Shown: positions 14,201 through 49,298 of the stretch, in pieces
Position numbering within the stretch: the first letter of the stretch is position 1
Layout of the letters: the number at the start of each line of letters is the position of its first letter
Assembly: GCF_032884065.1 (NCBI RefSeq)
Contig: NW_027063596.1
Span: 620,001 to 684,000 of the forward strand
Direction of reading: 5' to 3'
Source: Artemia franciscana
Taxonomy: Eukaryota; Arthropoda; Branchiopoda; Anostraca; Artemiidae
DNA: 64,000 nucleotides
Translations under genes and position numbers: made by a program
Notes under the pieces: generated by a model
Database searches by the model: none
Seen by the model: only the letters and a program-made list of their open reading frames with translations
What the model was told of the DNA's origin: nothing

Positions 14201-17200
14201 AGTCGTTTTGTGTTTTCAGCAAAGGGCCTGTTTTCCAGAATTATACAAATTCTGGTGAAATAACAAGAATCCGCTGATTTCAACCAAAGTCACCCCTTCT
14301 GGTTTCCATCTTTTAATTTAGACTTCAAATTTAAGGGGAAACTCTTTTAAAGTTAAGCAACTCTTTAATATCCCTGATACCGAAGTTTATTGACACTAAA
14401 AAATGTAAAGGAGTTGTAAAAAAATGTAAGGAGCTGTAATGATTTCAGAAATGCGTCAGTGGGGCATAGCCCAAAATTGGTTTGGAACCACTGCTATAGG
14501 TTATTTAAGGACGTTCTGCTATATTTTTTTTTTTTGTCATTTTGTGTTTTCAGCAATGGGCTTGTTTTTCAGAATTATACAAATTTTGGTGAAATAACAA
14601 TTCAACTGATTTGAACCAAAGTCACCACTTCTGGTTTCAATCTTTTAATTTAAACTTCAATTTTAAGGGGGGATCTTTTAAAGTTAAGCACACTCTTTAA
14701 TATCCCTGATACCGAAGTTTATTGACACTAAGAAATGTAGAAAGAGTGGGTTTATTAGGAATTTTCAGATTTTAGAGCACTGCCCCATCGATTTTTCATT
14801 ATTATTATTATTATTATAAAATTTAGTATTATTTAGTATGTACAAATATAGTATGTGGCGTGTACATAGAATGTTGAGTATGAAAATATCTCAATATATA
14901 TATTCAGATATATATATTGTACATATAGAAATATGTACATATAGAAAATATGTGCCAAATATTTTTAGTTTTTTTTTAGTTTACTTATTTTATTCAGAGA
15001 AATAGCCATATTTCTTGACATTTTAACTTTACAGTTAGACCATTGCAGGTTAGGGAGCTTGTCATCAGGACCTGTGGACTTAGTACTAAGCTGTGTAGAT
15101 AACTTTGAAGCTCGAATGGCAATCAACACTGCATGTAATGAACTGGGACAGACTTGGTTCGAATCTGGAGTTTCTGAGAATGCTGTGTCAGGCCATATTC
15201 AATTTATATGCCCTGGAGAGACTGCCTGTTTTGCTGTAAGTCTGTAACTTATGTATTGTTATATTATATAATAAGAAAAATCCAATAATAAAGTAAATTA
15301 GCAAAACAATATTGCTAAAGTAAAACAGTTCGAAATAGGGATGAAACCTATTAATTTACAATGAACAGATATAGAAATTTTTAACTGGATATTTCGAACA
15401 CATAAACAGTGTTCATCATCAGCAGTAAAACTCTCACTAAACTCAGTAAAAAAAAAAAACATTATATCTGTTCACTGTCAATTAAAAGGTTTCATCCCTA
15501 TTTTGAGCTGTTTTACTTTCGTCATGGAAAGGAGTGTGGTCTTATAAGTTATCAACAATATTGCTGTAGACAAAGTTGTAAGAGGAGAACAGTGTGGTTT
15601 TAGAAAAGGTAGAGGATGTGTCTACCAAATTTTTAATCTTAGCTTAATAATTCAGAAGTGCCTGAGTTATGAAACACCTTTGGTCCTCGGTTTTATAGAT
15701 TATGAGCAAACGTTGGATTCTGTTGATATAAGAGCTTTAGTGAAGATCTTACCCTCGCAAGGTATACCAGATAAACAGATTAAAGTGATGAGTGCTATGT
15801 AAGAGGATGAGGTTAGTAGCTAGTTTTGTATTAAGTCAGGACTCAAGTAGAGTTGTGTTATATCCCCCTTTATATGGATCATTTTGGCGAGTTTTTGCTT
15901 AATGAGCACAGGAAAGGCAATGAGAAACCGTGGAATCAAATAGAGATAAGAAAAAATCTTCTGGACACCGGAGAATTTTCTATATAGACACAAAAACAGA
16001 TGTGGACTAAAAAAGGGTGGAATTCAAGTTCTCGAAGCAATCACCCCCATTTCTTTTTAAACACCCTCATCACTCATTTAGTATGGTTAGTCTTGATATA
16101 TTCTTTTAAGTCAAGGGTAATTAGGGATTAAACGGCACTCCTTCCGAATTCATCGAACGGATCTTTAACTAAAAAATTTTGGCAACTGTTTTAAAATTAG
16201 AAAATGTCAGATACGAAAAAAACCCAATAAATTCATGAATAAAGAGAATGAATTATACAAACAAATTAAACAAATATTCCCTTTCATGCCTTTTTTTTGG
16301 AGAAAGTACTCGAAATAAAAACATATATTAATCATCCTTCAGAATTTAGAGGCTACTGAGTGAATTATCCCTCCCCCTCCGTGCCCCTTCAAAAACTGAA
16401 CAGAAAAGTCCAGTTTTTTTCAAATATTTTTACTTTTCTAAGTAAATATTCCCTTTCATGCCTTTTTTTTGGAGAAAGTACTCGAAATAAAAACATATAT
16501 TAATCATCCTTCAGAATTTAGAGGCTACTGAGTGAATTATCCCCCCCCCCCGTGCCCCTTCAAAAACTGAACAGAAAAGTCCAGTTTTTTTTTCAAATAT
16601 TTTTACTTTTTAGATTATATACATACCCTTTTAACTTGGTATATTCGAAAGAAAAAGTAAAATCCTCCGATTTATGATTTAAGCATTCTAGATAAAAATG
16701 TGAGTGAAATGAATGAACTTTTTAGAGGTTTGAGAGTTCCCGGGAGCTAGAATAGTTGTAAAGATTAATTTCAAGAAGACTAAGTCACTAAGGCTAGGAA
16801 TAAGATTAGTAACGAAAAGATTGATCAAGTGGACGGCTTCACTAATCTCGGTTATATTATTAGTAAAGAAGGTGGAAACAGTGAACATTTTAAAAGTAGC
16901 ATAGCCAAGGCTCAGGGTGTTTTTTCATAGTTAAGAAAGTTTGGAAGAACAGGAAGATAAGTTTGCCAACCAAGATTAGAATTTGGAAGCTACAGTGATG
17001 ATAGTGGTCAAGTATGGCTCTGAAGTATGGGGCTCCGAAAAGCGGATGAAGATGTGCTAGATGTATTCCAGAGAATTTGTCTACGAATAGTTCTGGGTAC
17101 CTGGATAATTGATCATATTTCAAACACTAGGCTCCACAAAAAGTTTGGTTCATTTCTGCTTTCTAGGGCTGTAATAAGAGAAAGGTTAAAATGGCTAGAG

Positions 17201-47774: not shown

Positions 47775-49298
47775 TTCAATATGCGTAGAGTTTATTAAAA
47801 ATAACTTACACCTTCAGAAATGAATGAGCCACCGTACTGCATTTCAACCTCAGAAACTCGGGGTTCAATATGCGTAGAGTTTATTAAAAATAACTTACAC
47901 CTTCAGAAATGAATGCGCCACTGTACTGCATTTCAACCTCAGAAACTCGGGGTTCAATATGCGTAGAGTTTATTAAAAATAACTTACACCTTCAGAAATG
48001 AATGAGCCACTGTACTGCATTTCAACCTCAGAAACTCGGGGTTCAATATGCGTAGAGTTTATTAAAAATAACTTACACCTTCAGAAATGAATGAGCCACT
48101 GTACTGCATTTCAACCTCAGAAACTCGGGGTTCAATATGCGTAGAGTTTATTAAAAATAACTTACACCTTCAAAAATGAATGAGCCACTGTACTGCATTT
48201 CAACCTCAACTCGGGGTTCAATACGCGTAGAGTTTATTAAAAATAACTTACACCTTCAGATATGAATAAGCCACTCTACTGCATTTCAACCTCAACTTGG
48301 GGTTCAATATGCGTAGAGTTTATTAAAAATAACTTACACCTTCAGAAATGAATGAGCCACCGTACTGCATTTCAACCTCAGAAACTCGGGGTTCAATATG
48401 CGTTGAGTTTATTAAAAATAACTTACACCTTCAGAAATGAATGTGCCACTGTACTGCATTTCAACCTCAGAAACTCGGGGTTCAATATGCGTAGAGTTTA
48501 TTAAAAATAACTTACACCTTCAGAAATGAATGAGCCACCGTACTGCATTTCAACCTCAGAAACTCGGGGTTCAATATGCGTAGAGTTTATTAAAAATAAC
48601 TTACACCTTCAGAAATGAATGAGCCACCGTACTGCATTTCAACCTCAGAAACTCGGGGTTCAATATGCGTAGAGTTTATTAAAAATAACTTACACCTTCA
48701 GAAATGAATGAGCCACTGTACTGCATTTCAACCTCAGAAACTCGGGGTTCAATATGCGTAGAGTTTATTAAAAATAACTTACACCTTCAGAAATGAATGA
48801 GCCACTGTACTGCATTTCAACCTCAGAAACTCGGGGTTCCATATGCGTTGAGTTTATTAAAAATAACTTACACCTTCAGAAATGAATGTGCCACTGTACT
48901 GCATTTCAACCTCAGAAACTCGGGGTTCAATATGCGTAGAGTTTATTAAAAATAACTTACACCTTCAGAAATGAATGAGCCACTGTACTGCATTTCAACC
49001 TCAGAAACTTGGGGTTCAATATGCGTAGAGTTTATTAAAAATAACTTACACCTTCAGAAATGAATGAGCCACTGTACTGCATTTCAACCTCAGAAACTCG
49101 GGGTTCAATATGCGTTGAGTTTATTAAAAATAACTTACACCTTCAGAAATGAATGTGCCACTGTACTGCATTTCAACCTCAGAAACTCGGGGTTCAATAT
49201 GCGTTGAGTTTATTAAAAATAACTTACACCTTTAGAAATGAATGAGCCACTGTACTGCATTTCAACCTCAGAAACTCGGGGTTCAATATGCGTTGAGG
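47775..49298. repeat. 89-bp satellite array, 17 units plus partial
   Basis: The unit starts TTCAATATGCGTAGAGTTTA, continues TTAAAAATAACTTACACCTT, and ends CATTTCAACCTCAGAAACTC plus GGGG. Starts fall at 47775, 47864, 47953, 48042, 48131, 48217, 48303, 48392 and so on to 49282: fifteen 89-base units and two 86-base units lacking GAA. Units are very similar, which implies recent homogenisation. The array is non-coding. Confidence 0.96.

Follow-up and report, generated by a model that had tools for sequence, protein, structure and literature searches.

In the portion of a 2022 study drawn on here, the marks given for false duplication are a gap that separates the copies, half depth, read pairs that are discordant, and one-copy k-mers (PMC9516828). 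Among these marks, the gap is the one on which the sequence of our window, a 64-kb stretch of Artemia franciscana DNA with a GC content of 33%, bears by itself, and in fact 100 N occupy positions 31680 to 31779, with the two copies of a duplicated block abutting them on both sides. The locus resembles the false heterotype duplications of that portion of the study in that adjacent colinear copies lie on one scaffold, with a gap between them and allele-like differences, and in that part of a gene's exons is doubled; it differs in that the class is defined there by depth, heterozygous k-mers and read-pair discordance (PMC9516828), whereas the likeness seen here is one of sequence.

Another system that comes close is the tandem duplication of just the 3′ part of a gene, in which one copy decays. 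The locus shares with it a second copy that consists of the last exons only and carries a premature stop; different from such duplications, the junction is not visible here and would fall in the gap. On balance, the duplication is very probably an assembly artefact, that is, a false (heterotype) duplication in which contigs that overlap, and that probably represent two haplotypes, were joined end to end.

The duplicated block and the gap

Self-BLAST of the window, together with a global alignment, bore out the claim of an earlier note on this DNA that positions 31780 to 47916 repeat positions 15542 to 31679. The first copy (copy A, 15542 to 31679, forward strand) forms the 3′ end of the left contig and holds the intact last two visible exons of UBA5, and the second (copy B, 31780 to 47916, forward strand) forms the 5′ end of the right contig. 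In self-BLAST, positions 15542 to 31678 and 31780 to 47915 give a single colinear direct match (16,181 columns, 98.5%), which falls one base short because the final base of copy A (31679, A) is mismatched with its partner at 47916 (C). The same note had reported a nearly constant offset of 16237 to 16238; the direct colinear match stands, but the constancy does not, since the offset drifts from 16,225 to 16,246. The substitutions and indels announced there are present in the global alignment, with 162 substitutions in 16,094 ungapped columns (1.0%) and 35 gaps, 34 of which are internal indels of 1 to 14 bp and the remaining one merely extra copy B sequence in the input.

The N run between the copies, which had also been pointed out, is exactly 100 letters long and is the only one in the window; 100 is a round number customary where the gap length is unknown. 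Copy A supplies 16,138 bases before the gap and copy B 16,137 bases after it, without overhang on either side, so that the two form a dovetail. A suffix-prefix match with zero overhang is expected where contigs overlap, and equally where a real tandem duplication has a gap at its junction, whereas two complete copies both abutting the gap by chance would be a coincidence. It follows that the dovetail alone is not decisive, since a gap inside a genuine tandem duplication also produces one.

Allele-like differences, a criterion of our own rather than of PMC9516828, were also found, in agreement with the earlier note: transitions outnumber transversions by 103 to 59 (1.75), the density of differences is clumped and polarisation is even, with a single nonsense change as the atypical element. 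The test of clumping, which presupposes an even mutation rate, returned variance-to-mean ratios for substitutions of 2.97 per 500 bp, 3.81 per 1000 bp and 4.80 per 2000 bp, and none of 5000 random placements was as clumped as observed at any of the three window sizes. When neighbours within 20 bp were merged, the 162 substitutions became 114 events, and the ratios were 1.64, 2.19 and 2.86 (p = 0.013, 0.005 and 0.006). In particular, a low-difference stretch at 20114 to 24700 (14 differences in 4,579 columns, 0.3%) is followed by a high-difference stretch at 24701 to 31679 (105 in 6,952 columns, 1.5%). Since the boundaries of these stretches were picked after the data had been seen, a moving-minimum test with a window of 4,587 columns was run: the poorest observed window held 13 changes, which was matched in 0 of 2000 random placements, and after merging of neighbours as poor a window occurred in about 0.1%. 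The clumping fits haplotypes with varying coalescence, whereas a single duplication event at an even rate predicts an even spread, which argues against a real duplication; an uneven mutation rate, constraint or gene conversion between real paralogues could be other sources of it.

Polarisation against diverged repeat copies, with counts summed over four small alignments, placed 14 changes on copy A and 13 on copy B and left 5 unresolved, and thus neither copy resembles a noisy consensus in those alignments. Moreover, copy B retains a 14-base stretch common to a diverged repeat, and copy A is without that stretch.

UBA5 exons in the two copies

UBA5 is the enzyme that starts UFM1 conjugation. 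The identification of the gene as UBA5 in the earlier note is confirmed by the open frame at 14969 to 15244, containing one exon, which matches UBA5 PDB chains with an E value of about 3e-30; in a Pfam scan, the open frame holding the UBA5 exon matched ThiF above the curated cut-off (E = 7.7e-12). Five coding exons are visible, all on the forward strand. The first three lie at 2143 to 2278, 8272 to 8468 and 15049 to 15235, the third being the last to the left of the duplicated block, and the last two are inside the block, where they had been placed before as exons 4 and 5. In copy A, the penultimate exon (19495 to 19622) is open and the last exon (24324 to 24693) contains the stop; their counterparts in copy B lie at 35725 to 35852 and 40555 to 40924. 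Read through copy A, the five visible exons have AG acceptors, with GT donors in the first four, and form a single open frame with a terminal stop. Read through the exons of copy B, the frame is closed by a premature TGA at 35827 to 35829, a transversion from the GGA found in copy A (19597), which would cost the final 131 of the 338 visible UBA5 residues. This TGA is the sole difference in 498 duplicated coding bases (1 in the 128 bases of the penultimate exon and 0 in the 370 of the last, which is identical in the two copies).

The premature TGA, overlooked in the earlier note, is the main evidence against an artefact; it represents a heterozygous loss-of-function allele, or an error, or else belongs to a real tandem duplication whose partial copy is decaying. 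One coding change was seen versus 5.0 expected at the mean rate of the block (P of at most one change, 0.04), which gives a slight hint of constraint, weakened by the neighbouring introns, which are equally poor in changes. Nonsense changes account for 3.6% of random changes in the duplicated UBA5 exons, a figure obtained with an assumed kappa of 3.5 over 513 bases, a few of them at intron edges, and they should be still rarer among segregating coding variants. We infer that the lone nonsense change favours an unconstrained copy several-fold. It would not be unusual for an outbred individual to carry a null allele on one of its chromosomes, but the TGA is predicted more readily by a copy that is redundant and in decay.

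Elsewhere in the gene, positions 1878 to 1940, compared with 2138 to 2210, look by eye like a decayed second copy of the start of the first visible UBA5 exon (FSRYMSFKQRGIVDNYEQI, then a stop). This element, for which tblastn gave an E value of only 0.17, has the real exon about 260 bases downstream of it and a similar flank; it is probably an old local tandem duplication. Within the first visible intron, positions 2720 to 3425 hold an array of 14 copies of a 50-bp unit.

Contig ends and surrounding repeats

As the earlier note had described, the left contig breaks off within an 89-bp array, of which the right contig has a long version. On the forward strand, 1.6 units occupy positions 31537 to 31679, where the array is cut by the gap, versus 17.2 units with 97% matches at 47774 to 49297. 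Parts of the 89-bp unit had no exact match in viral contigs or in bacterial and archaeal genome contigs. Downstream of the array, positions 49234 to 50323 contain diverged repeats of about 67% identity, where the 89-bp unit has four single matches, all weak (E = 5e-6 to 0.01); judging from these resemblances, the array may be an expansion of a single segment of an older and larger repeat.

An inverted repeat of 203 bp (15317 to 15519; 57-bp arms, 91%, and an 89-bp loop), which by its appearance may be MITE-like, stops 22 bases to the left of the point at which the right contig starts. Folded as single-stranded DNA, positions 15300 to 15560 reach −52 kcal/mol (z = −9.85), the mean of 200 shuffles being −18. 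In a ranking of 976 windows by fold strength, for which RNA energies served as a proxy, the hairpin at the break came 6th, and ranks 1 to 5 fell in the left contig at 6956 to 7410 and 12221 to 12545, the latter being a TA run. Since these stronger-folding windows were assembled through, the hairpin as the cause of the right contig's start is only suggestive. In the portion of a bird study drawn on here, simple repeats and LTR elements are the main sequences adjoining gaps, with satellites coming secondarily in PacBio assemblies, and that portion of the text does not mention hairpins, palindromes or inverted repeats (PMC7757076).

Two related LINE-like fragments, about 70% alike, are located at the edges of the block (15572 to 15859 and 31206 to 31539). 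The right contig had been said to start abruptly in the middle of an element: it starts 30 bases before detectable similarity to the other LINE-like fragment of the block sets in, and the position within an element is plausible only, because the RVT_1 match at 15572 to 15796 (E = 0.066) is under the Pfam cut-off.

Ten fragments were included in the Pfam scan, with matches above the curated cut-off in only two of them, ThiF and an RVT_1 at 53717 to 54343 (E = 1.8e-23). Another RVT_1 match, at 22489 to 22812 (E = 1.1e-4), is under the cut-off, weak matches to DEPP, SNaCT6 and CapC were regarded as chance, and four of the ten fragments gave no match. Positions 51082 to 54346 hold the remains of a non-LTR retrotransposon, with the RVT_1 preceded by open frames that by eye resemble an ORF1 and an endonuclease, both of them without Pfam support. 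Further downstream, a long diverged array of units of about 72 bp extends from 55305 to 57758 (28.2 copies at 55752 to 57758, 75% matches), after which more short arrays with periods of 61 to 81 bp continue to 58774.

Origin of the duplication and its consequences

The block could have arisen by a tandem duplication that is real, recent and partial, spanning at least about 16 kb with the 3′ end of UBA5, the assembler having broken at the junction, an origin that we consider improbable. Copy A would then complete a working UBA5 and copy B would be a redundant, decaying fragment that has gained a stop, roles that we regard as similarly unlikely; accordingly with such roles, the premature TGA is found in the downstream copy only, and copy A is open through the five visible exons. 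No junction between the copies occurs in the contiguous sequence of the window, where the N run is the sole possible place for it. The junction could hide there, but the gap would have to coincide with it, and the rest of the array of copy A, of which copy B has about 1.4 kb more, would have to lie unseen within the N run or to have been cut off in the duplication event. Furthermore, the LINE-like fragments at the edges offer no explanation through simple unequal exchange; an exchange between them was rejected because the hybrid fragment is absent at the join, where the left copy passes through its own LINE-like fragment to reach the array and the right copy starts before its own. A real duplication is nevertheless kept as a small but appreciable chance, since a decaying copy predicts nonsense more readily, and the locus would in that improbable case represent an early stage of the birth and decay of a gene fragment beside a working UBA5.

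Contig ends often have poor coverage, and both contigs could represent the same sequence, with the differences being consensus errors at such ends, a homotype false duplication that we consider very improbable. Such errors would suit the indels in part, as single-base events make up 21 of the 34 internal indels and 10 of these 21 lie in homopolymer runs of at least four bases, but the other 11 lie outside such runs. Moreover, random error is expected to give a ratio of transitions to transversions of about 0.5, far from the ratio observed, and neither the even polarisation nor the 14-base stretch kept in copy B and absent from copy A fits this origin. Consensus error as the sole cause of the differences was thus rejected on polarisation and on the ratio of transitions to transversions.

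Overlapping contigs joined by a 100-N spacer, as the earlier note had proposed, are the best-supported reading, in view of the dovetail, the clumped, variant-like differences and the context of the contig ends. In this false duplication, the assembler would have built two contigs, probably representing the two haplotypes of a single heterozygous individual. Assembly of the left contig would have halted within the 89-bp array, and the right contig would have begun about 16 kb further upstream, beside the 203-bp inverted repeat able to form a hairpin. The scaffolder would then have ordered and oriented the two correctly, left the 16-kb overlap undetected and inserted the spacer of 100 N. With the overlap counted once, the locus would shrink by about 16.2 kb and contain the last two UBA5 exons in single copy, and one UBA5 allele, or one erroneous consensus, would bear the premature stop.

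For users of this assembly, errors probably affect the gene models, the counts of repeats and the copy-number calls between 15.5 and 47.9 kb of the window, and annotation could yield a truncated second UBA5-like gene or an over-long UBA5 transcript. If the two contigs are indeed haplotypes and the base was called correctly, the sequenced individual would be heterozygous for a premature stop in UBA5.
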